DNA of 36,707 nucleotides from Colwellia sp. (GTDB lineage: Bacteria > Pseudomonadota > Gammaproteobacteria > Enterobacterales > Alteromonadaceae): assembly GCA_013215655.1 (NCBI GenBank), contig JABSOX010000005.1, forward strand, positions 1 to 36,707. The letters are read 5' to 3'. The notes below the pieces were generated by a model. That model saw nothing but the letters and a program-made list of their open reading frames with translations. It was not told the DNA's origin and searched no databases. Both the position numbers and the translations under genes were made by a program. Shown piece after piece: positions 6,339 to 33,349 of this stretch (the stretch's first letter is position 1; each line of letters begins with the position of its first letter).

Positions 6339-6449
6339 TTGCAGCTAATAGCTTTAGTCTGCTTCGTGGTGTTTGCTGACCCTTTGAACAAATGATTTAA
6401 TCGGAAATTATTTGCTTCGATGAAAGGATCACTTTGTGCGCAAAGCGGA
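6339..6449 (+). repeat. Decayed copy of the interspersed structured repeat (copy J)
   Basis: The left part (GCAGCTAATAGC, then CGTGGTGTTTGCTGACCCTT) and the right end (GGATCACTTTGTGCGCA at about 6427-6443) match other copies; the middle is eroded. It lies in the 935-base gap 6256-7190. The rest of that gap shows no gene and, apart from the sigma-54 promoter near its right end, no other recognised feature. Confidence 0.55.
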
Positions 6450-7090
6450 AACTTTTGGTATCAACATCATACCTTCCGCAGCTAGCCAATAGCTGACGTT
6501 AGCATTGAAATTACTAACGGCTTCTCAGAGCCTAGCGCAGTTGTCAAATGAATTTAAAGTACCTTTACCCCCAAACATTCGTTAACAACGGATGAATACT
6601 CAGTTAGTTAGGCGAACCACGTTTATTCTTACTACATTCACGGTTGATTTCACCAATATTTAATTGTTAGTTTTTCATATTAAACCAACAACTTGAGCAC
6701 TTAGTTATAACAAAGGATAAAAGAGTAAACTAACTGTTCACAAGTCAGTTGCTAGGTGGTGAGTTTGAATTGTATTTACTGCTCTGTAGCGGTGTTAATG
6801 TGATTAGTTACAACAATTAGCACCAGTGAGTTTTAATCAATTACATTACTGAAACTGTCATTATAGATAGGTAATGCGTGATTATATCAATGATATATCT
6901 ATCGTTGTTAGTCCATTTTAAGCATTTAATTGTGTAAAAATACTGAGATCAATTTAGATGAACATTCGTAAATTTTATGTAACATATTCAACTGGTTGAT
7001 AAGAGCTTTGGTGTCGGGTTATTTTACAGTATTACTTTATTTAAAATTGTTCAATTTATCATCATATTGAAATTGTTTAATATTTAAGTT

Positions 7091-7108
7091 TTGGTATGTT
7101 TTTTGCTG
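7091..7108 (+). promoter_or_regulatory. Sigma-54 (RpoN) type -24/-12 promoter of the PEP-CTERM gene
   Basis: The site reads TTGGTATGTTTTTTGCTG. It has GG at 7093-7094 and GC at 7105-7106, separated by exactly ten bases, and agrees with TGGYRYR-N4-TTGCW at nearly every position. Transcription would begin near 7118, giving a leader of about 70 bases before ATG 7191. An imperfect inverted pair TTCAAT (7050-7055)/ATTGAA (7066-7071) lies just upstream and could be an activator site. PEP-CTERM genes are known to be driven in several proteobacteria by RpoN with the PrsK/PrsR system. Confidence 0.7.
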
Positions 7109-7190
7109 AACAGGTGAAAAGGGAGTAATAACTTACTATTTTAACTATTACCTACCAAAAAAACTGAAAGGGACTAAAAAGGAAAACAAC

Positions 7191-7853
7191 ATGAAATTTA
7201 AATTTTTAAATATTATTTGGATAAGTTTGATACTGTCTGCAAGCTGTTTGGTTAACAATGCAAATGCTGGATTAATTCAGGATGGAGAGATAATTACTGA
7301 CACAGAAACTAATAACGAATGGTTTACACTTACGAGCACACTCGGCTTTTCATATAACGAAATGCTTTTAAATTTTATGGATATTAATAGCAAGTTTTAC
7401 GGTTTTTCATATGCAACATTTAGTGATCTAGAAACACTTATTAATGGTCAAGGATACACTGGTAATTATGCAATGCCTGATTATAATTCAGGGAATATGT
7501 CTGCCGCACAGTTATTACTCACTACTTTTGGGCAGACAGGTAGTAACGTAGCAGCAAGATCAGACGGTATGTTCCAAACTGACAGCGTTGGGTTCGCTAA
7601 TTGGTTGGTAGTATTACCCTCGTATAACTGGAACGGACCTGGAGCAACTGCTGTTATAGCATACGATGCAACAGGGTGGGGACCTCATCGCGCTGTTGCT
7701 GGATGGGGTAACGGTAATGATATGGGCAGTTGGATCTTTAAGGCTGACGAACCTATCACAGGTACAGCAAATGTTCCTGAGCCATCTACACTCGCTATTT
7801 TCGCATTAGGAATGATTGGGTTAGCATCACGTCGATTTAAGAAACAACCTTAA
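7191..7853 (+). CDS. PEP-CTERM sorting-domain exported protein
   Basis: This 220-residue protein has a signal peptide ending near A26. Its body is Gly/Asn/Trp-rich with no catalytic motif that I recognise. The C-terminal sorting tail is textbook: VPEPSTLAIFALG at 195-207, a hydrophobic helix, then the basic end SRRFKK. In this family the tail is recognised by an exosortase (EpsH/XrtA type) and the protein is delivered to the surface, usually in exopolysaccharide-producing cells. No exosortase or EPS gene lies in this window, so the sorting machinery must be elsewhere. The gene stands alone between a sigma-54 promoter and a terminator. AAAGGAAAACAAC precedes the ATG. The body opens with DGEIITDTETNNEWF, a pattern seen in PEP-CTERM proteins of marine gammaproteobacteria; the function is unknown. 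Confidence 0.92.
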   Translation: MKFKFLNIIWISLILSASCLVNNANAGLIQDGEIITDTETNNEWFTLTSTLGFSYNEMLLNFMDINSKFYGFSYATFSDLETLINGQGYTGNYAMPDYNSGNMSAAQLLLTTFGQTGSNVAARSDGMFQTDSVGFANWLVVLPSYNWNGPGATAVIAYDATGWGPHRAVAGWGNGNDMGSWIFKADEPITGTANVPEPSTLAIFALGMIGLASRRFKKQP

Positions 7854-7880
7854 TATAGTTTTTATTATGTGATTCTAGAA

Positions 7881-7914
7881 AAACATCAATTGTCATGATT
7901 GGTGTTTTTTTTGT
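7881..7914 (+). terminator. Intrinsic terminator after the PEP-CTERM gene
   Basis: ACATCAAT (7883-7890) pairs with ATTGGTGT (7898-7905), allowing one G-U pair, and is followed by a run of eight T. It starts about 25 bases after the stop codon. Confidence 0.8.
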
Positions 7915-8189
7915 TTCTGGTGATTGGTTAATTAGGTTATTTCACCTTTAAACCACCACCCTAAGATTAAGTATCCTTTGCTATGCCATATTTGTAAAAG
8001 ACTTCAGACACTTTAACTTAATATTCAGCACTGCTACGTCATTTTTATAATTTTGGCAACATTTCATTCACAAAAACCTATCCTTTTGCGAATAGTTGTC
8101 GCAATCATTGCAGTTAGATAAGCCAAGCCTAACGTCCGGTTTCGTATCAAAGGGGTCGTTAGGAGGGATGATTTTTACACATGAATTTA

Positions 8190-8343
8190 GACCGCTTTGT
8201 GGTGCTAACTGACCTTAAAATCAATTATCCTAATGACCGTTTTGTCGGATAAATCGACAATTACCATAAAAGAAATTAAGGGGCGCTTTTGAGCACAAAG
8301 CGGTCGTTAGCAAGATTTCCTGAGATGATCACTTTGTGCGCAC
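8190..8343 (+). repeat. Interspersed structured repeat, copy A (most complete)
   Basis: This copy is used as the reference. It contains four versions of one motif: GACCGCTTTGTGG (8190-8202, +), TAATGACCGTTTTGT (8231-8245, +), ACAAAGCGGTCGTTA (8295-8309, -) and GATCACTTTGTGC (8327-8339, +). The minus-strand version can pair with any of the plus versions. A small stem TTGTCG (8242-8247)/CGACAA (8255-8260) and a CCTTAA/TTAAGG pair sit inside. It lies in the gap 7854-8506; apart from the terminator at its start I see nothing else there. Confidence 0.85.
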
Positions 8344-8506
8344 AGTTGACGTTAACTACTGGCTATTCTTTGGGACTACTGATCGCTAAAAGGGGACGTT
8401 TACATTGTCAGAAAGTACATCAAGCATGACTAAGCAGCAGACATTGAGTCATTATAAATTATGGAAATTTTATTGACCTTTGTGCTTGGCATTAGAAAAT
8501 AGTTTA

Positions 8507-9403
8507 TTACTCAACTTGCAGCAGTGATATTACCCACTTTTGGAGTGCATCTTCATTATAGCGTGGATGCCAGGCCGCAATCACATCAAAATTATCAGGT
8601 GATTGTTCAAGGTTTATTTCTATTAAATCTAAGTCAGTTATCGCTCTGGAAGGCAAAAAAGCTATTGAATCCGTTGTATCTAGATACATAGGTACGATAG
8701 AGAAACATGGTGCAGATACCACTACATTTCGTTTTAAACCAAACGTCTTGAACCAGTCATCAATAGAGCCTTTAAAATTTGGTCGTGAAGGCGAAGCAAT
8801 AATGCTTGGATAACGTGCAATTTCTGCAAGAGAAGGATTTTTAAGTGCGATTGATGCCTTTGGTGAGGCAACGCAAACATGGTGTTCCTCAAAAAGTTTT
8901 ACGATTGGATAGTTATCTGGAATATAGTCAGGAAATGCGATTGCTAAGTTTACTTTTCCACTTTCCATTAATTCATGAATTTTATCTAACTCAAAGTCAC
9001 GAACGATTAACTTTAACTTAGGGGATTGCTCTCTGAGTAGAGAAATTAATGACGGTAATACTACTTGTTGGGCATAATCGGTTGCTGCAATAACAAAAGT
9101 GCCTGTGATTGTTTTAGGATCAAAGCTTGTCGGTGATAAAAGTGCGGTAAAATCATTTAGTAGTTTGTCTACGCCTATAGATAAATCTTCAGCAAATGGT
9201 GTTGGCACAAAACCATTCGTTTTTCTAAGAAACAACCTATCATCAAAAACATCACGTAATTTTTTTAAGTGCTCGCTTACGGCTTGTTGGGTTAGGCCCA
9301 ATTGATTGGCCGCTTTTGATGCATTTTGTTCTTGTATTAGGGCCTGAAACACCCTTAATTGTTTAAGATCTAATCGGTCTAACTTACTCACATGTATCGC
9401 CAT
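8507..9403 (-). CDS. LysR-family transcriptional regulator
   Basis: This 298-residue protein has an N-terminal winged helix (LKQLRVFQALIQEQNASKAA, then LTQQAVSEHLKKLRDVF) at about 12-60. A LysR-type periplasmic-binding-protein-like effector domain follows (TGTFVIAATDYAQQVVLPSL onward). Length and layout are normal for the family. It is divergent from the short-chain dehydrogenase-like gene at 9560; LysR proteins commonly control the adjacent divergent gene, so that gene is the likely target. The inducer cannot be inferred. Confidence 0.93.
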   Translation of the reverse strand: MAIHVSKLDRLDLKQLRVFQALIQEQNASKAANQLGLTQQAVSEHLKKLRDVFDDRLFLRKTNGFVPTPFAEDLSIGVDKLLNDFTALLSPTSFDPKTITGTFVIAATDYAQQVVLPSLISLLREQSPKLKLIVRDFELDKIHELMESGKVNLAIAFPDYIPDNYPIVKLFEEHHVCVASPKASIALKNPSLAEIARYPSIIASPSRPNFKGSIDDWFKTFGLKRNVVVSAPCFSIVPMYLDTTDSIAFLPSRAITDLDLIEINLEQSPDNFDVIAAWHPRYNEDALQKWVISLLQVE

Positions 9404-9525
9404 TACTTTTGCCTACAGTCTACGGCAATTTAACACATAACCAGTTATTCTTGTATCACTAACAATAAATGATTGTTTCTAATTGTTTTACCAGTTCTTT
9501 ACCATCTCTCCATCAAATCAATTTA

Positions 9526-10324: not shown

Positions 10325-10462
10325 TTGCCCTTTTAGCCGACTATCCTAATGACCGCTTTGTCAGATAAAACGACTATTGCCATAAAAGAATTCAAGGGGC
10401 GCTTTTGAGCACAAAGCGGTCGTTAGCAAGATTTCCTGAGATGATCACTTTGTGCGCATTGC
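10325..10462 (+). repeat. Interspersed structured repeat, copy B
   Basis: It matches copy A from the GCCCTTTTAGCC left variant through TAATGACCGCTTTGTC, AAGGGGCGCTTTTGAGC, ACAAAGCGGTCGTTAGC and GATCACTTTGTGCGCA. TAATGACCGCTTTGT pairs with ACAAAGCGGTCGTTA with a single G-U. A further ACAAAGCAGACTTA lies about 30 bases on, suggesting the element may extend rightward. It lies in the gap 10166-10949, where nothing else was recognised. Confidence 0.85.
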
Positions 10463-10949
10463 GGAAGTAATACTCTCAATCCTTGAGGGCAGCTCCTCAC
10501 GACAAAGCAGACTTAACATTAATTATTACTTTTTGATTGTTTAGATCGAATGACAGAAATACTGGTAATACGAATTAAGCAATACTGCTCCTTTTTCTGA
10601 AAATTCGATGAAACAGCTCTAACAGCTAACCGATTCTGATCTCAGCTTAACTTCCCTTTTTGGATTATTTAACTAAAAACGGAAGTAGAAATAGTCTGTT
10701 TTAAGGAAATGTTTACAATATTGATATAAACATTGCTGTTCAATTAACATAACCAGCCGATTACAGACGTTTGGCTCTAGAGCTAAACAGGCTGACCAGC
10801 CAGCTATTGTAAAAATACCAATACTTATTAGCCATTATGCTAAATTTGCCAATGTATAAATAAAACAAATAAATTTAAGTGATATCATAAGATATGCACC
10901 ATTTTAAATAGCACCGACCTATGTGCTTATGATTGCAGTCAAGTCATAT

Positions 10950-12068: not shown

Positions 12069-12249
12069 AGTGTATTCCTATTAAATTTTTTCGAGTCAAC
12101 GAAGGTAAAATTAGAGGATACTGTATTATTAAAACGTACTGTGTAAGAGACTGTAAAGATCAGCAAATTAATAGATCTAGCGGCTCGCAGACATAAGGTC
12201 TAATGTCCACAGAGAGCCTAAAAGTTGCCTTTATCTCCGTAATTATTCA

Positions 12250-12403
12250 TGTCACCTTTGTAGTGCTAACTGACCTTAAAATCAATTATCCTAATGACCG
12301 TTTTTTCGGATAAGACAACTATTGCAATAAAAGAAATCAAAGGGCGCTTTTGAGCACAAAGCGGTCGTAATAAAAATCCCCTGAGATGATCACTTTGTGC
12401 GGA
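12250..12403 (+). repeat. Interspersed structured repeat, copy C
   Basis: It shares TGCTAACTGACCTTAAAATC and TATCCTAATGACCG with copy A, then AGGGCGCTTTTGAGCACAAA, GCGGTCG and GATGATCACTTTGTGCG. The GTTAGCA after GCGGTC is lost. It lies in the gap 12069-12621, which otherwise holds only the inverted repeat at 12546. Confidence 0.8.
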
Positions 12404-12545
12404 TTGTTGACGTAACTATCTGAAATATTTCAGGTCAACTAAGAGCGACACAGCAGACCTCAAGGATTAACTAATTAGGAGCACTTTATGCTGAACGTAA
12501 CCTTTGAACAGTTGATTTACTGAGATTTATAGGTCGCTTTCTGAT

Positions 12546-12621: not shown

Positions 12622-13509
12622 TTATTTGCTGAAGCATTCTTCTGTTTCGACCATCTTATTTTGCGTTTTGAATTCAAAATCACTCGCATCATGGCGCTCA
12701 TGCAACTGCTCGTTCAATTCACCCCAAGTACGATTGACCATTACACCACGTTTAACCGCTGCCCGTTGTCCAATTTCTTCAGTCCAGCGTACTAAGTTTT
12801 TATAAGATTGAGTTTGCAAAAATTCTGCAGCTTCATATACTTTATTTTGTACCAGCGCCCCATACCAAGGCCATATGGCCATATCAGCAATTGTGTATTG
12901 GTCACCACACATATATTTATTATTAGCCAAATGTCGATCTAGTACATCAAGTTGTCTTTTTACTTCCATGGTAAAGCGTTCGATTGGATATTCGAATTTT
13001 TCTGGTGCGTATGCGTAAAAATGGCCGAAGCCTCCACCTAAATATGGCGCACTACCCACTTGCCAAAATAGCCACGACAAGCACTGTGATTTAAGTTGCG
13101 GATCTGTGGGGAGAAAAGCAGCAAACCTCTCTGCTAAATGCATTAATATCGCGCCAGATTCAAAAATGGGCAATTTCTGATCAAAGCTATTATCCACTAA
13201 AGCAGGAATTTTAGAGTTTGCATTGACCTCGACAAACCCTGAGCCAAATTGATCTCCTTCCATAATATTAATCAAATGTGCATCGTACTCGGCTTCTTTG
13301 ATATTCAAAGCTAATAATTCTTCAAGTAAAATAGTTACTTTAACGCCGTTTGGTGTGCCCATAGAGTAGAGTTGTAACGGATGTTTGCCAACAGGCAATT
13401 CCACTTGATGTGTAGCCCCTGCTACAGGGCGGTTAATATTGGCAAACTTTCCACTACCTTGTGAATTCCATTGCCAAATTTTGGGTGGTTGATAAGTATT
13501 TTCAGACAT
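12622..13509 (-). CDS. yghU: YghU-type glutathione S-transferase / disulfide-bond reductase
   Basis: The protein closely resembles E. coli YghU as I recall it: the NTYQPPKIWQW start, FANINRPVAGATHQ, LPVGKHPLQLYS, TPNGVKVTILLEELL, FVEVNANSKIPAL, and the end LNEQLHERHDASDFE. YghU binds two glutathiones and reduces disulfides or peroxides; it is cytoplasmic. I use ATG 13509 instead of an in-frame ATG at 13560, because GGAG sits six bases before 13509, YghU starts at the same point, and no ribosome site precedes 13560. It is the third gene of a minus-strand run with the AhpD-like and thioredoxin-like genes (gap about 175 bases), consistent with a thiol-stress group. It is about 296 residues long. 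Confidence 0.92.
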   Translation of the reverse strand: MSENTYQPPKIWQWNSQGSGKFANINRPVAGATHQVELPVGKHPLQLYSMGTPNGVKVTILLEELLALNIKEAEYDAHLINIMEGDQFGSGFVEVNANSKIPALVDNSFDQKLPIFESGAILMHLAERFAAFLPTDPQLKSQCLSWLFWQVGSAPYLGGGFGHFYAYAPEKFEYPIERFTMEVKRQLDVLDRHLANNKYMCGDQYTIADMAIWPWYGALVQNKVYEAAEFLQTQSYKNLVRWTEEIGQRAAVKRGVMVNRTWGELNEQLHERHDASDFEFKTQNKMVETEECFSK

Positions 13510-13684
13510 TTCAGCTCCGTAATTGATATTCATATATTCAAAGTTTTCATTAACTGGCATCGAGATTGTTTACTGTATTCTTAGTTGAGCACTACAAATC
13601 CATCACATCATATTGGGGGATTTGTTATGCTTTATAAATAGTTGATTGTGTCCAGAATAAGATTTTATAACTCTTATTGCTATT

Positions 13685-14230
13685 CTACTTCCACTTAATC
13701 GAACATCCTATACTTGGATGTTGTGAAGCAGGCCCATGGCCGGTCTTAGCTATCTGAAGCAATGCATCAAGCAACTCAGTTTTTCGATTGGTTGCATCCC
13801 CCATGACTGCATCATCAAGTCGTCCCCGATATTGAAGTGCTCCCGCTTTATTAAAGCCATAAAAATCTGGTGTGCATACTGCTCCGTAACTTTTTGCAAT
13901 AGCTTGCTCTTCGTCTACCAAGTATGGAAAGGTAAAACCATTAGTTTTAGCAAATGCTCGCATATTATCTGGACTGTCTTCTGGGACATAACGGTAATCA
14001 TTAGAGCTAATGGCAACGACATTAATTCCTTCTGCTTGTAATAACTTAGCGTCATGAACAAACCGATTTATGATACGTTTTACATAGGGGCAGTGATTAC
14101 AGATGAAGGCTATTAACAAACCATTTTCACCTTGTAAATCGGATAAATTATAGCTATTGCCATCCGGGTCTAACAATGTAAAAGGCTTGGCATTCCATCC
14201 CATTTCAGCTTTTGGTGTATCTAACAACAT
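13685..14230 (-). CDS. Thioredoxin-fold (AhpC/TSA-like) redoxin
   Basis: This 181-residue protein has a thioredoxin/peroxiredoxin-like core: FTLLDPDGNSYNLSDLQG at 17-34, then LLIAFICNHCPYVKR with the redox pair C44-N-H-C47. VVAISSND, the cis-Pro region CTPDFYGF, and the ending GCSIKWK are trademarks of a widespread 'thioredoxin family protein' of 180-200 residues. No signal peptide is seen, so it is cytoplasmic. It is probably co-transcribed with the upstream AhpD-like gene (61-base gap containing a perfect 11-bp hairpin) and perhaps with yghU downstream. The likely role is thiol-dependent reduction of peroxides or disulfides; the substrate is not known. Confidence 0.9.
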   Translation of the reverse strand: MLLDTPKAEMGWNAKPFTLLDPDGNSYNLSDLQGENGLLIAFICNHCPYVKRIINRFVHDAKLLQAEGINVVAISSNDYRYVPEDSPDNMRAFAKTNGFTFPYLVDEEQAIAKSYGAVCTPDFYGFNKAGALQYRGRLDDAVMGDATNRKTELLDALLQIAKTGHGPASQHPSIGCSIKWK

Positions 14231-14250
14231 GATTTAATTCTCTAATAGAG

Positions 14251-14281
14251 GAGCAATAATCGATGAATAAGATTATTGCTC
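14251..14281. repeat. Intercistronic perfect 11-bp hairpin
   Basis: GAGCAATAATC (14251-14261) and GATTATTGCTC (14271-14281) are exact reverse complements with a nine-base loop, filling most of the gap between the AhpD-like and redoxin genes. No T tract follows on the minus strand, so it is better seen as an RNA-processing or stability hairpin than as a full terminator. Confidence 0.6.
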
Positions 14282-14291
14282 GGAAAAATCA

Positions 14292-14858: not shown

Positions 14859-14912
14859 AAATGTATCTCTTAAAAAGTTAATAATAAACGGTGTTTGTAC
14901 CGACTGGTTCAA

Positions 14913-15732: not shown

Positions 15733-15989
15733 TATCTACCATTCATATGAACTTCATAGGTATTTCGGCTAGAAATGAGAGCAATTAAAATTCTTATAGC
15801 CATTCAAATACCTTTTACGTTTTGCTTATAAACCTATTAAATCCAATCAGATTATATTTATCAGAAAAGCCTTAAAATGGTCATATATTTAAATTTCCCT
15901 TATGATATGAATACAAACAGAGTATAAATATTATGTCCACTTATATACTAATAGCACACCGATTATTGAGTAACTTCAGCTAATAGATA

Positions 15990-16225
15990 TAGTCCTTTTT
16001 GTGGTAATACTGCCCTTAAAGCTAACTATCTTAATGACCGCTACGACAATTACCATACAATAAATTAAGGGGCGCTTTTGAGCTGTGAGATCAATTGGTC
16101 AACGCAACACTATACTTAGAGAAAGTAGGGGCGTTACCATGAAACGAAGAACAAGAATTTACTATAATGCACAACAACGTGCATTGATTTGGGATAGATA
16201 TCCTGAAATGATCACTTTGTGCGCA
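15990..16225 (+). repeat. Interspersed structured repeat, copy D, split by an IS30-family remnant
   Basis: The left half (ATACTGCCCTTAAAGC, TTAATGACCGC, ATTAAGGGGCGCTTTTGAGC, ending 16083) and right tail (GATATCCTGAAATGATCAC, TTTGTGCGCATTG, from about 16195) match other copies. The expected ACAAAGCGGTCGTTAGCAA between them is replaced by the IS30 left end. The inner stem is also shortened. Outside this element the gap 15733-16405 shows nothing recognisable. Confidence 0.8.
16084..16198 (+). mobile_element. IS30-family left-end remnant with transposase start
   Basis: TGTGAGATCAATTGGTCAAC at 16084-16103 resembles the terminal inverted repeat of IS30 as I remember it (TGTAGATTCAATTGGTCAAC). ATG at 16139-16141 opens MKRRTRIYYNAQQRALIWDR, the typical IS30 transposase N-terminus. 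After about 20 codons the frame runs straight into the repeat sequence (TATCCTGAAATGATC), so nearly all of the transposase and the right end are lost. GATA is shared at the junction, suggesting a short-homology deletion. Confidence 0.8.
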
Positions 16226-16405
16226 TTGCACAAGTGAACAGTCTAAAAATAAAAACTTCAACTATCTGTTGGTAAGCTGTCATTAATAACTGGTTAGATG
16301 GAGCACTTTACGGACTAATTTTTTAATATAAAAATGGTCTTCTAACAGTCCTCCTATATATCAATATAAGTTTGTATTTATGGGTTTTACTATCTTTGCA
16401 GTAAT

Positions 16406-19164: not shown

Positions 19165-19309
19165 TTCTAATGATTTTAGCTAATAAGCTTGGTCTCCTTT
19201 GTGGTGATTACTGCCCTTATAGCCGACTATCCTAATGACCACTTTCTCGGATAAAACGACAACTAAGATAAAAGAGATTAAGGGGCGCTTTTGAGCACAA
19301 AGCGGTCAT
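19165..19309 (+). repeat. Interspersed structured repeat, copy E (right end lost)
   Basis: It contains TTTGTGGTGATTACTGCCCT, ACTATCCTAATGACC, CGGATAAAACGACAACTAAG, ATTAAGGGGCGCTTTTGAGC and ACAAAGCGGTCATT. It stops there: the ATTTCCTGAGATGATCACTT tail is missing. It lies in the gap 18904-19500; besides the leader hairpin nothing else was recognised. Confidence 0.8.
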
Positions 19310-19500
19310 TGAACTTTTGTGAAACCATCAACATGTTTTGGGTAATATTAACCGTAATTCGCTGCTCACTTGTTAGGCGGGTTTAAGCTCATAGTTGCCG
19401 TTCATATTCGGTTCCTGAACGTTCTTTGAGCCTAAAGCCGTTGTTTGTGAAAATGGAATTTTCGCCCAAGTTATAGATGAGTTAATGATTTCTGGGCGGA

Positions 19501-21471: not shown

Positions 21472-21623
21472 GACGGCTTTGTGGTGAGAACTGACCTTAA
21501 TATCAATTATCCTAATGACCGTTTTATCGGATTAAACGACCATTACCATAAAGGAATTTAAGGGGCACTTTGAGCACAAAGCGGTCGTTAGCAAGATATC
21601 CTGAGATGATCACTTTGTGCGCT
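21472..21623 (+). repeat. Interspersed structured repeat, copy F
   Basis: It contains CTTTGTGGTGAGAACTGACC, ATCCTAATGACCGTTTTATC, AAGGGGCACTTTGAGCACAA, GCGGTCGTTAGCAAG and GATGATCACTTTGTGCGC. The AAACGACCATTACCATAAAG segment is shared with copy I. Confidence 0.85.
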
Positions 21624-21663
21624 AGCGGAAGTGAGTAGTAATACGCTTTAACTTCCGATGTTT

Positions 21664-21715
21664 AGCACAAAGCGGTCGTTAGCAAGATTTCCTGAAATGA
21701 TCACTTTGTGCGCAT
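21664..21715 (+). repeat. Interspersed repeat, copy F' (right half only)
   Basis: AGCACAAAGCGGTCGTTAGC, then AAGATTTCCTGAAATGATCA and CTTTGTGCGCATTG, reproduces exactly the right half of the element about 90 bases after the same segment of copy F. This is a tandem partial duplication or a longer element with internal repeats. Confidence 0.85.
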
Positions 21716-21954
21716 TGCTGCATTAAACTACGTTCAAATCCAAACTGCTAATGTTTAGTACAAAGCAGTCATAACAAATAGATTATCCTATTGTGTTGTC
21801 GTTCAAAAATCATATTAGATCAGTTTAATCTTTCCCCCCTTAACTAAAAGTTAACATCAACTGAAAATTGTTTCGATATTTTCCCTGCACGCTCAAGCCT
21901 ATGATGACCACTGATAAACAAACGATTTAAAAGAAGTCAAACGAGGAACGGCAG

Positions 21955-22818: not shown

Positions 22819-22934
22819 TTAGTTATCACAAAAGTACGTTTATGTTCACTAAAAAAATGGCCATGAATAGTGTGGCCAATTATTAGCAGTACCTAACAGT
22901 CAACTTATCTCATATAAACATAGAGAACTTTACC

Positions 22935-24961: not shown

Positions 24962-25138
24962 TTTTGACTCAAAGTTTCAATCGATAAGAACATATTAATA
25001 GCTTAGTCAGTTCTAGTTAACTTAAAGTTGAGTTCACATTAAATAAATTTCGATATTTTTAATAATTCGATTGATTAAACTATTCATTATTGAGTTTATA
25101 TTTTGTAAATAACAAGCCCGAAGCTTCAGGAGAATAGT

Positions 25139-25864
25139 GTGATACGAGAATACCCCCAAGCAACACCTCACGGCGAAATCAAAGAGATTTTTGACGATGT
25201 ATTTCTTGTAACAGGTAGTGTTGTTATGGCACCCGGCATTCAACTCAGCCGTAATATGATTATTGTTCGAGAAGACACATCACTAACGTTAATTAGTACC
25301 GTAAGGCTTGATGATAAGGGATTACAAGCGCTTGATACACTTGGTGATGTAAAACATGTTGTCAAACTTGGCGCTTATCATTTAGGTGATAACAATGGTA
25401 TTGACGACCCATTTTATGTCGATAGATATAATGCCAAGCTCTGGGCAATGCCAGATATGAATCATCGTCAAAGCCTTTCGACAACAAATTTACTAACACC
25501 AGAAGGAGAACTACCTTTTAAGGACGTTTTGCTATTCTCGTATGAGACCTCTAAAAAGCCAGAAGCATTACTTCTAATCAATAGAGCAGGTGGTATTCTT
25601 ATTTCTTGTGATAGCCTACAAAATTGGCTGGAGCCTGATGAGTATTTTAGCGACGTTGCAGCAAATGTTATGGGAAAGGCTGGTTTTTTCCGTGCCGCAA
25701 ACATAGGCCCTGAATGGCTTCGTGCCTGTGAACCAAAAGCGTCGGACTTTTCACGTGTTCTAACATTGGAGTTTAGTCATCTTTTGCCTTCACATGGTAG
25801 ACCAATAATTGCTACAGCTAAGCAAGAGTTCACTACTACCTTCAGTGAATTTTTTAAGATGTAA
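25139..25864 (+). CDS. Metallo-beta-lactamase-like protein lacking the canonical HxHxDH
   Basis: This 241-residue protein starts at GTG with CAGGAG six bases upstream. It has the order of an MBL-fold protein (EIKEIFDDVFLVTGSVVM opening strands, GGILISCDSL with Asp158, LLPSHGRPI with His219). Where a classical member has HxHxDH there is LGAYHLGDNNGIDD, leaving only His81 and Asp residues. It is either a divergent MBL subfamily (some DUF-type members look like this) or a non-catalytic relative. It sits next to a divergent LysR gene and is followed after a terminator-like hairpin by a GST. Fold assignment is by motif order only. Confidence 0.65.
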   Translation: MIREYPQATPHGEIKEIFDDVFLVTGSVVMAPGIQLSRNMIIVREDTSLTLISTVRLDDKGLQALDTLGDVKHVVKLGAYHLGDNNGIDDPFYVDRYNAKLWAMPDMNHRQSLSTTNLLTPEGELPFKDVLLFSYETSKKPEALLLINRAGGILISCDSLQNWLEPDEYFSDVAANVMGKAGFFRAANIGPEWLRACEPKASDFSRVLTLEFSHLLPSHGRPIIATAKQEFTTTFSEFFKM

Positions 25865-25886
25865 AATACGGAGGAAAATGGCAGTT

Positions 25887-25926
25887 AAGCTCTATCGTCG
25901 AATACGATAGAGCTTTCATTATTTTA
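25887..25926 (+). terminator. Intrinsic terminator between the MBL-like and GST genes
   Basis: AAGCTCTATCGT (25887-25898), loop CGAAT and ACGATAGAGCTT (25904-25915) form a perfect 12-bp stem followed by a T-rich TCATTATTTT. It is 22 bases after the stop codon, so the GST gene may need its own promoter or depend on read-through. Confidence 0.7.
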
Positions 25927-25946
25927 ATCACAACTAGGAGTAAACA

Positions 25947-26570
25947 ATGCAGTTATATGGAATGGGTATATCGCGGTCTTTCCGCACCTTATGGGCAGCG
26001 GAAGAAACAGCAGCGGATTACGATTATATCGAACTAGATTTCGGTAGTAGTGGTGACAACGGCTCCCAGTCTAAGCATTATAAAAAGCTCAATCCACAGG
26101 GGAAAGTGCCAACATTGGTCGACGGTGAGCTAGTGATCTGCGAAAGTGCCGCCATTTTGAACTATTTAGCGGCCAAGACACCGCAGCACAATCTTATGCC
26201 GAAAGACGGCACCGCAGATCGAGCTAGATATGATGAAATGTGTTTCTTTATTTTGTCTGAACTAGAGCAGCCTTTATGGACTACCGGAAAACACAAGTTT
26301 GCCATTCCTGAGCAATACAGAGTGCCAGAAATATTGAACAAAACTACCGCGTTTGAATTTGCCAAAGCCCAGTCCGCTTTGTTGGCTCTTAAAGGTGATC
26401 GTGAATATGCCGTGGGTGAGTATTTTACCATGGCCGACATTTTACTGGCTCAGACATTGGGTTGGGCCCAAAGATTTGAATTTTCAATTGATGACAGCTT
26501 GGTTGAATATAAAGAGCGAATGACCAAGCGGGATGCCTTTGCCAGAGCCATGAAAAAAGCCGGAAAATAA
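25947..26570 (+). CDS. Glutathione S-transferase
   Basis: This 207-residue protein has an N-terminal thioredoxin-like GST domain (MQLYGMGISRSFRTLWAAEE; LNPQGKVPTLVDGELVICESAAILNYLA, with cis-Pro and the ES glutathione-binding pair). An all-helical C-terminal domain contains REYAVGEYFTMADILLAQTLGWA. Length is normal. The catalytic residue is not a clear Cys or Tyr; Ser9 or Ser11 is a candidate. It belongs to a different subgroup from the YghU-type GST at 12622. ACTAGGAGTAAACA before the ATG is a good ribosome site. Confidence 0.92.
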   Translation: MQLYGMGISRSFRTLWAAEETAADYDYIELDFGSSGDNGSQSKHYKKLNPQGKVPTLVDGELVICESAAILNYLAAKTPQHNLMPKDGTADRARYDEMCFFILSELEQPLWTTGKHKFAIPEQYRVPEILNKTTAFEFAKAQSALLALKGDREYAVGEYFTMADILLAQTLGWAQRFEFSIDDSLVEYKERMTKRDAFARAMKKAGK

Positions 26571-26726
26571 AATATATACTTATTTAGGAATGACTAAAAT
26601 TGACAAAGTCCTGCACTAAACCGAAGTAAACTGGCTAAACTCCCTAACGACTGCTTCATAGTATTATGTGAGTGTCTTCTTTGGTGGCTAAGCTATCTAT
26701 CTATTAAGATAAATTCACGTCTAAGT

Positions 26727-26838
26727 TTGGTCGGTTTTGTCGGATAAAAAGACAATTACCATACAAGAAATCAAGGGGCGATTTTGAGCACAAAGCGGTC
26801 GTTAGCAATATTTCCTGAGAGGATCACTTTGTGCGTAT
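26727..26838 (+). repeat. Interspersed structured repeat, copy G (left end diverged)
   Basis: It matches from TTTTGTCGGATAAAAAGACA through AAGGGGCGATTTTGAGCACA, AAGCGGTCGTTAGCAATATT and GATCACTTTGTGCG. The usual TATCCTAATGACC is replaced. It lies in the gap 26571-27089, where no other feature was recognised. Confidence 0.8.
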
Positions 26839-27089
26839 TGCTGACGGAAGCGGTTGCTTTACTAACGACAGCTCTTCCGACAAAATTGACATAAAACCTC
26901 TTAGCTAGTATGTTAGTTTTTTCCGCTAAATAGACCGAGTTTAGGAGTCAAAGCCAACCAGTTTTATGATTACTTAGAAGTGTAAATGAACATTTTAAAT
27001 GTTTGATGAAATATTTTCATTAGTCGAATAAGCTATTGAAGTGTGGTAGATTTCTTGGATTATTAATTCGACTTTAGAACAAGAGAAAC

Positions 27090-27941
27090 ATGTTTAAATT
27101 ATTTGGTTTTATTTTATTTTTATTCCTTTCTATCTCATCAAATATTGTAAGTGCTGAATCAAACTCCTTTTCTATTCCTCGAAGTGAAATCGTTGAGATT
27201 AGAGATTTAAAAAACGAACGAATTTATCCATTATTTATAAAGTTGCCTCGATCATATAACCGCAATACTAGACAACATTATCCTGTAATTTATTTAACGG
27301 ATGCTTGGTATTCATTTCAAATCATTTCCGGTGCGACACGCTTTCCAATGAACACAGGCAAAATGCAAGAAGCCATCATTGTCGGTATTTCCTATGAAAA
27401 AGGTTCGAAAGGAGATACAAGTAGAGTTCGCGACTATACCCCCGATAAAGCCAGTGCTTGGAAAAAACAAACCGGAGGTGCGCCTAGCCATGTCGCATTT
27501 ATCAAGAATCATGTCTTTAAATATATTGATGAAAACTATCGGACTGATAAAGTAAATAGAACATTTGTTGGTAACTCGTTAGGCGGTCTATTTGGTTCTT
27601 ATATTTTGTTAACAGATCCCAATATGTTCAATAATTATATTTTGGGTAGCCCATCATTTTGGTTTAACAACAAATCATTATTCAAAACTAAAGCATTAAT
27701 GCCTGCTACTAATCTAGGTCAGCCTATTAATGTTTTTGTTGGCATAGGAGAGCAAGAAGCATTCAATTTTGGCAATCAATATGACATGGTTAATGATGCA
27801 AAGGTTTTTATAAAAACGATAAATAAAATTTATGGTAGCAAAGTTAATAGCAAGCTATTGGTGATCCCTGAAGCCGATCATTATACAGCGTTTCCTACAA
27901 CCGCCGTGCAAGGTCTTGATTGGATATACAGGGTTAAATAA
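27090..27941 (+). CDS. Exported esterase (IroE/Fes-like alpha/beta hydrolase)
   Basis: This 283-residue protein has a signal peptide (cut near A22). The fold marks are YNRNTRQHYPVIYLTDAWYS, AIIVGISYEKG, FVGNSLGGLFGSYIL with the nucleophile Ser, and PEADHYTAFPTTAVQGLDWI with the catalytic His. It belongs to the same putative esterase family as 16406-17347 but lacks the lipoprotein Cys, so it is periplasmic or secreted. It is followed after five bases by the M1 peptidase gene, a clear operon. The likely role is cleavage of an ester-linked compound before peptide trimming; the substrate is unknown. Confidence 0.9.
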   Translation: MFKLFGFILFLFLSISSNIVSAESNSFSIPRSEIVEIRDLKNERIYPLFIKLPRSYNRNTRQHYPVIYLTDAWYSFQIISGATRFPMNTGKMQEAIIVGISYEKGSKGDTSRVRDYTPDKASAWKKQTGGAPSHVAFIKNHVFKYIDENYRTDKVNRTFVGNSLGGLFGSYILLTDPNMFNNYILGSPSFWFNNKSLFKTKALMPATNLGQPINVFVGIGEQEAFNFGNQYDMVNDAKVFIKTINKIYGSKVNSKLLVIPEADHYTAFPTTAVQGLDWIYRVK

Positions 27942-27946
27942 CAAAA

Positions 27947-29305
27947 ATGAATATTATTTATAAAGCAGGAATATTTTTAATTTTCTGGCTTACATCGTCT
28001 ACTGTATTTGCCGAAGCGGATTTTGTTGCTCGAAGAAATGTCGATTTCATTCATTATAAAGCCGAATTAGCCGCTGATTTTAAAGCGCTGTCTGTTTCAG
28101 GGAAAGTACAGATTGAATTCGTCGCCAAAGTTGAAAATGTAGAGCAACTCACCTTTTCTGCCAAATATAAAACAATATATTCAGTGAAAATCAATAATGT
28201 TACTACAGCTAATCTTATTGAGGACGAACGTTTAATAGTAACGTTCAAAGAGCCATTGCAGGTAAATAAAACTTATCTATTAACGGTAGAATACCAAGCT
28301 TTACCTGAGCGAGGCATGAAATTTTACGATGATCACCTCTTTACTGTTTACCATACAAAAAACTGGTTAGTATCACATGATTCGATAGCTGATAAAGCCA
28401 GCTTTGAATTGTTACTTACTCATGATGCTAAGTTAACCTCAGTTGGTAATGGTCGTTTGCTATCAACAGGAGCCAAGTTTGGTAATAAAGTTATCTCCCA
28501 CTGGTTACAAGATTCACCAATACCAATCTATACCTTTGGATTTGCACTAGGTGAGTTTGAAGAGGTAAGAGCAACACACAAAAACTCACAGTTATCTTAT
28601 CTCTATCGTAAAAATTCTAAATCAGGCTTAGATCCCCAAAAAATAAAAGATGTATTTATCAATGTTCCTGACATGATTGATTTTTTCGAAAATAAAGCTG
28701 GATTTGTACTGCCCAATAAATCTTATCAATATGTCGTTGTTGAGGGCTATATGGCACAAGAAGCAGCTGGTTTTAGCTTAGTTGGAGAAAAATATGTACA
28801 TACAGTGCTTGCAGATAAAAATGAAAATTGGTTTATTGCCCATGAACTGGCTCATGAATGGTGGGGCAACAGTATTACTTGTGCTAATTTTTCTCACTTT
28901 TGGTTAAATGAAGGTTTAGTTCAATTTTTAGTTGCTGCATATAAACAACATCTGTTTGGCAATTCCGCTTACAAGCAGGAAATAGGTGTTGCTATTGCTA
29001 GGGTCAAGCGAGCCGTGCAAAAAGGTAAAATATCACCAGTTGCATTTAAACATCAGATTAAAGAACAAAGCATAAATAGAACAATGGCCTACAGCAAGGG
29101 AGCGCTTATTTTTTATATGCTCCGTAATAAATTAGGTGAAGAGATATTTTGGCGAGCATTAAAACACTACAGTATAAAAAACAAACAATCATCAGTGACC
29201 ACAGATGATTTAAAAAAAGCATTTGAAAAAGTGAGTAAACAAGATTTAACCCATTTTTTTAACCGTTGGGTCTACGGAAAAGAAATCCCTAAACTGAGTT
29301 TATGA
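27947..29305 (+). CDS. Exported short M1-family zinc aminopeptidase
   Basis: This 452-residue protein has a signal peptide (cut near A22). Residues 30-200 form the N-terminal beta domain. The catalytic domain carries HELAHEWWGNS at 299-309, with zinc ligands H299 and H303 and, 18 residues on, E322 in WLNEGL: the M1 HExxH-x18-E. The GAMEN exopeptidase loop is replaced by QEAAGF at about 271-276, and the transition-state Tyr lies in TMAYSKGA. The protein is about half the length of PepN-type enzymes: the C-terminal helical domain is missing, as in other short bacterial M1 proteins. It is co-transcribed with the esterase just upstream. Confidence 0.92.
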   Translation: MNIIYKAGIFLIFWLTSSTVFAEADFVARRNVDFIHYKAELAADFKALSVSGKVQIEFVAKVENVEQLTFSAKYKTIYSVKINNVTTANLIEDERLIVTFKEPLQVNKTYLLTVEYQALPERGMKFYDDHLFTVYHTKNWLVSHDSIADKASFELLLTHDAKLTSVGNGRLLSTGAKFGNKVISHWLQDSPIPIYTFGFALGEFEEVRATHKNSQLSYLYRKNSKSGLDPQKIKDVFINVPDMIDFFENKAGFVLPNKSYQYVVVEGYMAQEAAGFSLVGEKYVHTVLADKNENWFIAHELAHEWWGNSITCANFSHFWLNEGLVQFLVAAYKQHLFGNSAYKQEIGVAIARVKRAVQKGKISPVAFKHQIKEQSINRTMAYSKGALIFYMLRNKLGEEIFWRALKHYSIKNKQSSVTTDDLKKAFEKVSKQDLTHFFNRWVYGKEIPKLSL

Positions 29306-29504
29306 GCCATCAAACATTAAGTAAAGGGTCGGTTTCTAGCAGCAGAAGTTTAAATTGGGAAGCTGCTTATTTCCGCATTACGCACCAAAGAGCTCATCAA
29401 TAGCAAGCCTGCTTATGACAGCTTTAGGCTCATTGTGACTGCTAGATATAGTGATTTCGGCTCTTAATTTATGACCGCTTACTGTCCATTATTCTGGGGC
29501 AAGA

Positions 29505-29652
29505 TCAAAGTGGTGATTACCGCCCTTATAGCCAACTATCCTAATGACTATATTGTCGGATAAAACGACAACTAAGATAAAAGAGATTAAGGGGCGCTTT
29601 TGAGCACAAAGCGGTCGTTAGCAAGATATCCTGAGATGATCACAGTACATTG
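29505..29652 (+). repeat. Interspersed structured repeat, copy H
   Basis: It contains TGGTGATTACCGCCCTTATA, AACTATCCTAATGAC, TTGTCGGATAAAACGACAAC (perfect inner stem), ATTAAGGGGCGCTTTTGAGC, ACAAAGCGGTCGTTAGCAAG and ATATCCTGAGATGATCAC, then diverges before CTTTGTGCG. It is closest to copy E. The palindrome arm GGGGCAAGATCAAAGTG abuts its left end. It lies in the gap 29306-29795, otherwise empty. Confidence 0.85.
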
Positions 29653-29795
29653 CGGAAGTTAGCTAGCCGCCCAACCTAAGGTCCGCTCTATAGTCTCATA
29701 GTTGACCTAACAACATGAAAAGCTTAATGTCAGCTAAGAGGTATAACGGACATTCGGTCTAATCAAATCGAGCGCCGGCATCAATTCATTTTATT

Positions 29796-31034
29796 TCATT
29801 TGGTAATACAATTTAAGTCTTGAATGAATACAGCCCCCGATTCTTGACCTTGAGCATCATGATTGGGTGTGGCAATAATGGCAACGCCATTAGATAACCC
29901 AACGTTCCATCCAAATTTATCATCTGACATGCTACTCTTGGCTACAAACTTTGATGTATAACGCCAACCGCCAGAGCCTTTCTTGTATACATACAGTGCT
30001 CCAGTATTGGAACCGTTAGCATCATGGTTCATTGCACTTATAATTGCAGTATCGCCGCTCAACGCAACGCCACGCCCAAACCTATCGTCAGCTTGCCCAT
30101 CGGGTGAAGTCAGCTTAACTTGTTGTGTCCAAGTACTGCCATCTCGCACAAAAATATATGCAGAACCTGCATCTATCCCTAACTCTTCAGTATCGTCTCG
30201 TCTTGCGGAAACTAGTGCGGTATTCTTTGACAGTGCTACTCTGACGCCAAAAATATCAGTTTTCCCGCCATCAGACGCCATGAGTTTAGCTTCTTGCTTC
30301 CACTTATTTTCCTTTAGAACATACACGTATACGGCTCCAGCGTTTTCCGCTTTTTCGTCATGTAAATCAGCCCCAACAAGAATGGTATTGCCGTCAATGG
30401 CAACGCTTATGCCAAATAAATCTCCCGCTACACCATCACTCGCTGTTATTTTAGTTTGATAGTGCCACGAATCGTTTTCTCGTTTGTATATATATGCGGC
30501 TCCTGCGTCGTTACCCAACGCGTCGTTTCGCGGAGCGCCAATGATAAGGTGATTTTTGGTGAGTGCAATACTCTGACCAAAAGCATCTCCCGGTTTTGCA
30601 TCAGGTGCAGTGAAAATATGACGTTGCTTCCAAGTATTCACTTCACGTTCAAAAGAGACAACAGCGCCCGAATCTTTCCCTTTATCATCCCTTCTCGACA
30701 CACCTAACATGGCAACATTATTGTTCAATGCCACGTTGCCACCAAGTGTATCTTCGGCGAAGGCCGGCTCAGCAACGAGTTTAGCTTGTTGACGCCAACC
30801 GCTCTCGCCTAACACATAGACATAAGCTGCTCCAGCATCTTTTAGACCATCGATATCTGCTTTATATGCACCGATTAGTACTGTCGTGCCATCTATAGCA
30901 GCACTAAAGCCAAAAGAATCTCCTGCCTTGCCATCGTCCGCTAAAATAATATTTTGCGCCGCAAAGCTATTCGCAGCGACTAATGTTAGAATCGCACATA
31001 TGTGGCGTTTGACCTTATGTATTAATTTCATCAA
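29796..31034 (-). CDS. Exported FG-GAP / integrin-alpha-like beta-propeller protein
   Basis: This 412-residue protein has a signal peptide (cut near A25). The rest is about seven repeats of ~53 residues, each with (D/E)xxxxDxFGxxVALxxxxxxIGAxxDDxxxxxxGAxYVY followed by W-x-Q-x-x-K-L. The repeated FG..VA and GAxYVY blocks are those of FG-GAP propellers, which bind calcium through Asp-rich loops and often mediate surface binding. No enzyme motif is present. It follows the MBL hydrolase by 73 bases on the same strand and probably shares its transcript. Confidence 0.88.
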   Translation of the reverse strand: MMKLIHKVKRHICAILTLVAANSFAAQNIILADDGKAGDSFGFSAAIDGTTVLIGAYKADIDGLKDAGAAYVYVLGESGWRQQAKLVAEPAFAEDTLGGNVALNNNVAMLGVSRRDDKGKDSGAVVSFEREVNTWKQRHIFTAPDAKPGDAFGQSIALTKNHLIIGAPRNDALGNDAGAAYIYKRENDSWHYQTKITASDGVAGDLFGISVAIDGNTILVGADLHDEKAENAGAVYVYVLKENKWKQEAKLMASDGGKTDIFGVRVALSKNTALVSARRDDTEELGIDAGSAYIFVRDGSTWTQQVKLTSPDGQADDRFGRGVALSGDTAIISAMNHDANGSNTGALYVYKKGSGGWRYTSKFVAKSSMSDDKFGWNVGLSNGVAIIATPNHDAQGQESGAVFIQDLNCITK

Positions 31035-31107
31035 TTTTCTCCTATCCGTTTCAAACTAATAACAACCAAAATGTAAATATGAATAAGTCTTTCTGCTTCA
31101 CAAATAA

Positions 31108-32019
31108 CTACTCGAGCAGTCCCGTTATATCGTAGTAATGTGTAGTAACCATTCTCTCGGTGGTAATAAATGCCCAATTCCATTTGTCTGTATACTTATT
31201 CAAAGGATCTAAAGCCTTGATAGCCTCCAAAGATAAACCTTGGTCAATTAGTGCTTTAATGATGTTGTGTGTTTCGTTCAACATGGCGATACTTGCTTCT
31301 AAGTCACCTAGCGTTGCTATTGGCCCATGTCCGGCGATAATTTGCGTATCTGCGTCAGCGGCTTCAATTATTGCCTTGAGACCTGCAATGAATCCTGCTA
31401 TCGAACCACCATTATCAATATCTATGAAAGGGAAACGCCTGGTAGAAACGAGATCGCCTCCATGGATTATATTGGCCTCCTTGAATGCAACAAAGAGGTC
31501 ACTGTTTGTATGGGCATTCGGCGCGTAATAAAGCTCAATGCTTTGTCCGTTCATTTTTATCGATGTATCTTCTGTGACGTCAATTGTCGGGAAATATTGT
31601 GGTGTGAACTTGGGAGCTTCGCGGCCTAACGCTTTGAGTGCCCCTGGGTTTTCAAGATACCGACGCACATTTGGGTGAGCCATAGTTATAGCCCCACGCT
31701 CCTTGAAGTACGCATTACCTCTGACATGGTCTCGGTGAAAATGTGTATTAAGGATAAGGTCGACATCGCGGTTATTGGATAGTTTTTTCTGGGCACCATC
31801 AATAAGTTCGGCCAGGTGCTCCATCTGTGTATCAACCATGAAAACACCGTCTTCACCAATTAACACGGCAACGTTGCCCGAGCGGTCCGTTCTTAGCTCG
31901 AAAATACGACTGCCAAGATCAGTTACCTTGATATCGAAACCTTTGTGTTGGTCGTGGTTGTGCGCAACTGCAAAACCACACCAACAAAAAATAGCGATAA
32001 GCTGAATCATCTTTTGCAT
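31108..32019 (-). CDS. Exported MBL-fold metallo-hydrolase
   Basis: This protein of about 303 residues has a signal peptide ending near A20 (FCWCGFAVA). It has a complete metallo-beta-lactamase metal site: THFHRDH near 93-98, GHAHTN-like PNAHTNSDLF, IHGGDLVSTRRFPFID with the Asp ligand, and AGHGPIA with the last His. This is the exported quinoprotein-relay/SoxH-like group rather than a beta-lactamase proper; the substrate is unknown. I start at ATG 32019 (MQKMIQLIAI) instead of a TTG two codons upstream; neither has a strong ribosome site. It is divergent from the LysR gene at 32276 and upstream of the FG-GAP gene. Confidence 0.92.
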   Translation of the reverse strand: MQKMIQLIAIFCWCGFAVAHNHDQHKGFDIKVTDLGSRIFELRTDRSGNVAVLIGEDGVFMVDTQMEHLAELIDGAQKKLSNNRDVDLILNTHFHRDHVRGNAYFKERGAITMAHPNVRRYLENPGALKALGREAPKFTPQYFPTIDVTEDTSIKMNGQSIELYYAPNAHTNSDLFVAFKEANIIHGGDLVSTRRFPFIDIDNGGSIAGFIAGLKAIIEAADADTQIIAGHGPIATLGDLEASIAMLNETHNIIKALIDQGLSLEAIKALDPLNKYTDKWNWAFITTERMVTTHYYDITGLLE

Positions 32020-32275
32020 TATCAATAACCAGAATTACTATTTTTATGTAGTGTGGCTGTTAAGCCAAGTAGGTAAATTATTAATGTGAGGGCTGTTTTC
32101 ATCTTTATACTCGTTATCTGTGTTCGACTATTCAATTCATATTAAGAGAGCATCGACATAAAATATAATTTTATAATGACATCACATTCATTTCTAAATA
32201 TGATGAATAGATTAAGATGATAACTTATACATAAAATTATATGATGAATTAAAGCAATAATTAAGGACGTTAATT

Positions 32276-33214
32276 ATGCGACCCCATGAATTAAAATTAT
32301 TGGTTATTTTTGATGTAATAATGACCGAAAAATCAATAACACAGGCGGCTGAGCGATTATCAATGACTCAACCCGCTGTTTCAAATGCTGTGGCCAGAAT
32401 GCGAGTATTATGGAAAGATGAGTTACTCGTTCCAGATGGCCGAAAAATACAGCCTACAACCTATGCAAAAAACCTTTGGGAGCAAGTACGAGACTCCCTG
32501 CATAACATCAATCAAGCTGTAGAGCCTGTAGCTTTTGAGGCAAAAAGTGCCAAACGTACATTTAGAATTGCTTTACCTGATATTGCCCTTGATGCACTTG
32601 GGTTGGATATGCGGAAGTTATTCGAGCAAGAAGCCCCAGGACTAAACTTACACGCGGTTCCTTATACCATAGCGTGTACCAAACCATTGTTGGATGACGC
32701 TGATGTCGATCTTGTTATAGGACAAAGCAATCGCTCATTAGAAAATATCTGCTCAGATCACTTATTTGATACTAGTTATGTCTGTGCCATGCGTATAGAT
32801 CACCCTTTGGCAAAACAAAATCTAACTGTTGAGGAGTTTGCCTCTGCGCAGCATTTGTTAGTTTCATTATCAGGCGACAGTACTAGCCCTACAGACCAAG
32901 CTTTACAACAATTAGGCTTGTCTAGACGAGTAGCTTTTACGGTTAATAAATTTTCCTCCGCTGTCCCTATTATTAAAGAGAGTGATCTTATTGCAATTTT
33001 ACCTACTGATCTTCTTCATCATTATTTAGGTTGCGGTGAGCTTGCAATTACTCATCCTCCACTAGATATTCCTCATACTTCCATTTCAATGTTATGGCAT
33101 AAGCGACAAAGTGCCGATAAAGGGTTAATTTGGTTGCGAAGGCACATAAAGCAAATATTCATTAAACGAAGAACACATCAGGTTGAAAAAGTGCTGAATT
33201 TTATTGATTCATAG
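32276..33214 (+). CDS. LysR-family transcriptional regulator
   Basis: This 312-residue protein starts MRPHELKLLVIFDVIMTEKS and has TQAAERLSMTQPAVSNAVAR as the winged helix, then a full effector domain (RTFRIALPDIALDALGLDM onward). The layout resembles NodD/LeuO-like LysR members. AAGGACGTTAATT before the ATG is a good ribosome site. It is divergent from the MBL hydrolase/FG-GAP pair (256-base AT-rich gap), its likely target. It is the last chromosomal-type gene before repeat copy I and the integron array. Confidence 0.93.
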   Translation: MRPHELKLLVIFDVIMTEKSITQAAERLSMTQPAVSNAVARMRVLWKDELLVPDGRKIQPTTYAKNLWEQVRDSLHNINQAVEPVAFEAKSAKRTFRIALPDIALDALGLDMRKLFEQEAPGLNLHAVPYTIACTKPLLDDADVDLVIGQSNRSLENICSDHLFDTSYVCAMRIDHPLAKQNLTVEEFASAQHLLVSLSGDSTSPTDQALQQLGLSRRVAFTVNKFSSAVPIIKESDLIAILPTDLLHHYLGCGELAITHPPLDIPHTSISMLWHKRQSADKGLIWLRRHIKQIFIKRRTHQVEKVLNFIDS

Positions 33215-33249
33215 TTTTGCATTATTAAGTGCCTATCACGCCAGAGTCT

Positions 33250-33349
33250 TCTTAGTCGGATTAAACGACCATTACCATAAAGGAAATCAAGGGGCACTTT
33301 GAGCAAAGCGGTCGTTACAAGATTTCCTGAGATGTTCACTATGTGCGCA
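33250..33349 (+). repeat. Interspersed structured repeat, copy I
   Basis: It contains TTAGTCGGATTAAACGACCA, ATAAAGGAAATCAAGGGGCA, CTTTGAGCAAAGCGGTCGTT and AGATTTCCTGAGATGTTCAC. It is missing the left end and a few bases around GCACAAAG. It is closest to copy F. It lies in the gap 33215-33718; the rest of that gap has no gene, in particular no integrase on either strand. Confidence 0.75.

Follow-up and report, generated by a model that had tools for sequence, protein, structure and literature searches.

Integrons are well-known builders of arrays of exchangeable units with same-direction sites, and REP/BIME elements with their RAYT transposase form mosaic strings of palindromic modules between genes. 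Enterobacterial intergenic repeats of the ERIC or RU type are 103-168 bases long, as given in an excerpt of PMC2759123, and prokaryotic miniature inverted-repeat transposable elements (MITEs) are described in an excerpt of PMC10969869 as short and non-coding. Here, we describe a repeat family in a stretch of 36,707 nucleotides from Colwellia sp. (assembly GCA_013215655.1, contig JABSOX010000005.1, positions 1 to 36,707; called the window below), which is contig C107 of a 5.56-Mb draft assembly with 161 contigs. The window holds ten copies of a 110-160-base repeat, all on the + strand (Table 1). The family is new; repeats of this general kind are known, and the arrangement of this one is unusual. 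Our favored reading, which is tentative and falls somewhat short of even confidence, is that of a lineage-specific, imperfectly palindromic, intergenic repeat family whose copies would be used as homology for exchanging gene blocks.

Each of the four known systems shares something with this repeat and differs from it. Going by the excerpt of PMC2759123, ERIC/RU-type repeats are, by description, like it in size, intergenic place and many scattered copies; the present repeat differs from them in running in one direction per contig and in coming from one lineage so far. With REP/BIME elements it shares the mosaic strings of palindromic modules in gaps, but its unit is longer and no copy lies beside the only Y1-type transposase gene found. 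It is short and non-coding like prokaryotic MITEs, as far as the excerpt of PMC10969869 describes them, but it showed no target duplication (five full copies) and no parent element was identified. Like integron attC arrays, it consists of same-direction repeats of about 100 bases that separate gene units; unlike them, it has no attC match, its outer arms are not conserved, and the units comprise one to five genes in both directions.

The ten copies reported in an earlier note on this DNA were all recovered close to the starts it gave, by direct-repeat families D1-D4, by BLAST and by profile R1. Its statements that the copies lie between genes and read the same way on the + strand were also borne out for 10/10, with open reading frames (ORFs) chosen from the ORF list taken as genes. 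The 21-mer GAGCACAAAGCGGTCGTTAGC had seven window matches at up to 3 mismatches, compared to a mean of 0.01 in 100 shuffles. Profile R1 also matched the minus strand at 8188-8261, 12233-12318 and 21466-21545; each of these matches overlaps a + copy and is its palindrome. The repeat is a discrete unit, as multi-copy similarity stops within about 40-60 bases of the core in most of the 36 neighborhoods compared. Two further places had been called decayed copies, of which the one at 6339 stood only as short fragments and the one at 17815 was dropped because it had no match at E <= 1e-3 to the other 35 neighborhoods.

In the genome as a whole, profile R1 gave at least 36 matches at E <= 1 and at least 30 at E <= 1e-3 (two of them the minus-strand palindrome echoes in the window). 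This corresponds to at least 28 copies or part-copies on at least 12 of the 161 contigs at E <= 1e-3, ten of them in the window. These counts are lower bounds since 150 of the 3410 first-look candidates were scored. A BLAST search, also a lower bound with 40 of its 52 candidates scored, found further fragments at E <= 1e-3 on contigs C112, C1 and C53. Scoring in the relatives was limited per genome, so counts there are again minimum values. Two of the five other genomes of the genus had matches, which were shorter or more diverged: at least five or six, depending on the query, in genome G004 and at least one in genome G005. None of the 53 further relatives beyond the genus genomes had a match among the best candidates scored per genome. 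This genome has the 13-base arm word AAAGCGGTCRTTA 28 times (against 4 for the reversed control), and none of the 58 relatives has it more than 7 times. A search of the genome collection, possibly without the records of the window itself, for an exact 26-base core word gave one match, a Colwellia metagenome-assembled genome (MAG) with the same locus, so that the genus is probably Colwellia or one close to it.

The opinion in the earlier note that no named family fits this repeat held up. No Rfam family reached its gathering score in the window (whether that library includes ERIC was left unchecked), the plasmid and phage collections gave no blastn match to the repeat, and no viral contig matched the one exact 21-base word searched. 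No paper on this repeat family, or on intergenic repeats of Colwellia, was found in the open-licence literature, which is weak as a sign of absence.

The uniform direction of the copies has a two-sided chance of 0.004 when F' is counted with F (9/9). Contig directions in the assembly are arbitrary and, thus, orientation across the genome is readable only within contigs. Outside the window, all five contigs with at least two copies were uniform (C156 and C11, 3/3 each; C106, C21 and C101, 2/2 each), and the chance of this for their 12 copies is 1/128 by arithmetic on the R1 scan. C58 and C34 have a common 77-base end through which they join in the same sense, and their single copies agree in direction. 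Weaker fragments on contigs with another copy agreed in four of five cases (C11 6811, C156 7867, C34 8912 and C148 17684). The earlier note had held that equal directions across the genome would remove the novelty; within contigs the bias stands, and it recurs outside the window. Another possible explanation is chance and history, with few independent events in accessory DNA rich in insertion sequences (IS) and a striking window picked out, so that a coincidence seems ordered. The small number of copies (at least 28 at E <= 1e-3), the short contigs and the selection of the window for its ordered look could all contribute to such an effect. However, the contigs outside the window, which were not used in finding the pattern, are also uniform, and we consider this explanation unlikely.

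Table 1. Repeat copies and neighboring features in the window
Feature	Position	Strand	Description
Copy A	8190..8345	+	Full length: left arm, core, right arm; direct-repeat, BLAST and profile matches
Copy B	10325..10463	+	BLAST, profile; near-identical locus L115 loses its match about 22 bases upstream
Copy C	12251..12406	+	Full length; BLAST, profile
Copy D	15987..16240	+	Interrupted by a short insert resembling the start of a transposase gene; BLAST, profile
Copy E	19165..19329	+	Incomplete right arm; BLAST, profile
Copy F	21472..21622	+	Full length; BLAST, folding, profile
Copy F'	21656..21720	+	Partial, right half only, immediately after F; G005-shared block starts 42 bases beyond
Copy G	26690..26846	+	BLAST, profile; G005-shared block ends 84 bases before
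Copy H	29505..29650	+	IS-like end (29484-29507) abuts the 5' side; BLAST, profile
Copy I	33248..33357	+	Lacks the 5' part; final copy ahead of the attC array; BLAST, profile
Fragments, not a full copy	6339..6454	+	Upstream module and ATCACTTTGTGCGCA tail; direct-repeat search, neighborhood comparison
Chromosomal-integron cassette array	34039..36706	+	Six attC (34039, 34594, 35164, 35675, 36229, 36645) with small ORFs between

Two further accounts of the direction were considered. The nine copy-bearing gaps comprise four convergent, four tandem (two each way) and one divergent gene pair; with the arrangements mixed in this way, the direction of the repeat does not follow the genes, and a gene-directed role was rejected because the neighboring genes fail to predict it. 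The genes around the copies are ordinary (LysR regulators, dehydrogenases, esterases, glutathione S-transferases (GSTs) and peptidases). The second account, insertion or retention linked to replication direction, was one that the earlier note had raised, and it was examined through third-position skew at four-fold codons, a measure calibrated on a closed relative, in which 18 of 20 stretches gave a value. C101 (+0.122, standard error 0.027) and C148 (+0.091, standard error 0.043) have + copies on the G-rich strand, as such a link would predict. However, the ten + copies of C107 (-0.071, standard error 0.030) and the - copy of C116 (+0.105, standard error 0.027) are on the other strand, so that, among the four contigs whose skew exceeds 2 standard errors, two fit the link and two do not. 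The remaining repeat contigs did not pass this limit and are not informative, and the sites on C34 were too few. The skew of recently acquired DNA may be misleading; a replication link was already disfavored, and we regard it as extremely unlikely.

Each full copy runs from a left arm (CTTTGTGGTG..TGACCTTA..) through a core (GTCGGATAAAACGACAATTACCATAAAAGAAATTAAGGGGCGCTTTTGAGC) to a right arm (ACAAAGCGGTCGTTAGCAAGATTTCCTGAGATGATCACTTTGTGCGC). Variable modules follow beyond the core (TTGACGTTAGC.. or GCGGAAGT..ACTTCCGC), and some copies are preceded by an upstream module, making the gaps strings of palindromic pieces. The partly complementary arms fold a copy into a long imperfect hairpin. Single copies fold better than shuffles in all three cases tested (z -3.56 for copy A, -3.69 and -3.94; DNA parameters, single-stranded), in agreement with the original description of the repeats as structured. 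Folding of this kind would also suit a transcribed structured element, such as a terminator, an mRNA-stability element or a small RNA, that is maintained by selection. Against this, the direction of the copies is independent of the genes, and the 21-copy alignment kept only two base pairs with no compensatory change, although many truncated rows weaken that test. Conserved RNA structure was rejected on this result, and a transcribed element seems very unlikely to us. Read by eye, the core of the left arm varies (GATTAC, GAGAAC or TAATAC in some copies) with no matching change in GTTAGC, and pairing of the GCTAAC/GTTAGC outer arms is seen in only part of them. As to the terminal inverted repeats expected of a MITE, the 5' end takes one of two forms, CTTTGTGG or a CAAAGTGG-like sequence, and CACTTTG near the 3' end complements only the second.

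The spread of copies by tandem duplication, as proposed in the earlier note, did not agree with the relations among them. Identity was 0.877 on the same contig compared to 0.874 between contigs (permutation p 0.40, 20 copies). Copies on the same contig are, therefore, no more alike than others, which makes local duplication unlikely, and it was rejected. Five of the nine window copies have their nearest relative on another contig, and the copy at 29541 is identical at 1.00 and 0.99 to two copies on C106. Distances among the copies were correlated within segments (r 0.77 and 0.59) and little between segments (0.32, -0.10, 0.20 and -0.19; 6 to 14 copies), suggesting that copies exchanged pieces. 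In sequence, the copies resemble mosaics made up of parts of each other.

The repeats may be joints for gene-block swapping. An incoming block with one repeat would recombine with a resident repeat in a single crossover, leaving two direct repeats that flank the block. Repeated additions, with deletions by the reverse path, would build an array in which the repeats are co-directional and the genes between them point in any direction. Ordinary homologous recombination (RecA) could supply the enzyme. The origin of the first copies lies outside this model and was perhaps a MITE-like insertion. Block exchange was favored since it was the only model considered that gives one direction with neither local duplication nor a replication link. 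If it is true, modular accessory DNA of marine bacteria would be partly explained without a dedicated enzyme, multi-gene blocks moving by homologous recombination, and the repeats would mark exchangeable units. We think it improbable that the locus is an array system separate from integrons, in which every block of one to five genes, often with its own regulator, has a single directional palindromic repeat, and blocks are put in and taken out, by RecA or a dedicated recombinase, in one repeat direction only.

Gene content was compared with two other versions of the region. The first is a contig of the Colwellia MAG (JALJPB010000146.1, locus L115; numbered C53 in the MAG and distinct from C53 of this genome). 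It matches the window without a difference over 7.7 kb, from 1765 to 9443, has 16 differences from 9443 up to 10268, and beyond about 10303, which is 22 bases before copy B, only repeat pieces match. The growing number of differences ahead of the break is an argument against a simple misjoin. Compared with an 18-kb stretch of C101, the MAG gave three gene-length matches that were only 66-71% identical, and a search of the MAG for genes of window 13401-33400 found none with 40 of 87 candidates scored. Both results suggest that L115 either was transferred recently or belongs to the window species and was misbinned; under both readings it represents the locus in a second version. The second comparison was with G005, which carries the block 21762-22859 plus 24051-26606 (genes for NmrA, LysR, a 241-aa ORF and GST) at 88-89% identity, with DNA on both sides unlike that of the window. 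Three of the five gene-content breakpoints are close to a copy, at 22 (B), 42 (F') and 84 (G) bases. Of the ten gaps above 480 bases, nine contain a copy (F and F' together in one), and the 11 shorter gaps contain none; about 82% of the intergenic bases fall in the long gaps by arithmetic on the gap list and, thus, this pattern is only mildly unusual. Within the long gaps, the spacing of the copies gave p 0.014.

Several observations weigh against block exchange. The fragment at C106 36198, which is a 58-base left end, runs opposite to the two copies on C106. The MAG contig L115 may be misbinned or misassembled. The breakpoints at 22859 and 24051, on either side of a short-chain dehydrogenase (SDR) gene that the G005 block lacks, lie 1.1 and 2.3 kb away from copies, and 52% of intergenic bases are within 150 bases of a copy, so that the three close breakpoints are weak alone. 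Over all 21 gaps, the even spacing does not stand out (p 0.14 with ten copies and 0.042 with nine taken as independent). Between segments, two of the four correlations were still slightly positive (permutation p 0.035 and 0.051), and the four-gamete test found 11 of 300 site pairs incompatible, seven of which involve one column. Mosaicism could also arise by gene conversion without block exchange. Finally, no circle or excision scar was seen.

The nearest rival to block exchange is a mobile element with biased insertion. In this case, a non-autonomous MITE- or REP/ERIC-like element would be moved by a transposase in trans, a regional property would set the direction of insertion, and block exchange would be unrelated. 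The repeat is a discrete palindromic unit with unrelated flanks, spread over at least 12 contigs, with nearest relatives often on different contigs and, by the partial account of ERIC-type repeats cited above, a size like that of such small mobile repeats. On the other hand, independent insertions are expected in mixed directions, and skew fails to predict the direction. No consistent target-site duplication was found outside the element in the five full copies, the best shared words, at any of the offsets tried, being 3 bases in four copies and inside the element; the ends of the element are fuzzy and this is, therefore, not a strong negative. A REP element with RAYT was rejected since the 3.3-kb locus around the genome's only Y1_Tnp match, on C128, lacks the repeat (Y1-type genes being the only type searched). 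Overall, we see a mobile element as possible but doubtful.

The attC array begins about 0.7 kb after copy I and is outside the repeat family; its last attC, at 36645, is cut by the contig end. This closeness raises the question of whether the repeats are attC-like sites or remnants of cassettes captured by the integrase of the genome. There were attC matches on five of the 12 copy-bearing contigs, compared to 1.8 expected (p 0.019, best candidates scored), and the strong attC matches run in the direction of the repeats on every one of the five. Two of the four loci examined in G004 (L076 10035-10693 and L078 13012-15260) also have a diverged copy 0.4-0.9 kb from attC-like sequence, but that sequence runs opposite to the copies, as do weak attC matches on C156 and C133 to the repeats there. 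Moreover, attC profile R2, built for this genome, had no match in window 1-34038 at E <= 0.1, the outer arms pair in only some copies, and both kinds of repeat may just collect in poorly assembled accessory contigs. The repeats were rejected as an attC variant on the lack of a profile match and of conserved outer arms, and we hold an integron-related origin to be very improbable.

The genome (G000) has a large chromosomal integron, with at least 123 attC matches over at least 24 contigs at E <= 0.01 (150 of 4283 candidates scored), many of them in arrays. C98 has attC at both contig ends in opposite directions. This suggests several attC arrays in the genome. An integrase-like gene adjoining the main attC array (L027 3912-4803, on C141) is split over several reading frames and, thus, looks broken or misassembled. 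The integrase profile matches all 14 control genomes and its match here is below the cut-off, so the identity of this gene rests on position as well. No paper joining chromosomal integron, attC and Colwellia was found in the open-licence literature, again weak as a sign of absence.

The IS-like end TGATCTTGCCCCAGAATAATGGAC was found eight times, at up to 3 mismatches, in 15 contigs examined; 13 of these were chosen for the repeat, or part of it, that they carry, so that no genome-wide rate follows from the count. Six of the eight abut a copy (window 29484; C34 6004, C106 42821, C133 21204, C58 3038 and C121 5957), as if the repeats were a preferred target of one IS-like end type. In two different copies, at window 16087 and L016 6160, similar IS ends have the same point of entry, after GCGCTTTTGAGC. 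These ends look IS30-like, and the insert in copy D resembles the beginning of a putative IS30-type transposase gene. The only Y1-type transposase gene found (L116, on C128) has several copies of a different repeat, TTTGTCGAGCCTC..GTCGACCTACAA, on its flanks, and the two are perhaps a REP system of their own. A further repeat occurs three times in one direction at C101 41258-43700 (L020 11258-13700), with matches in G001-G004 and G059.

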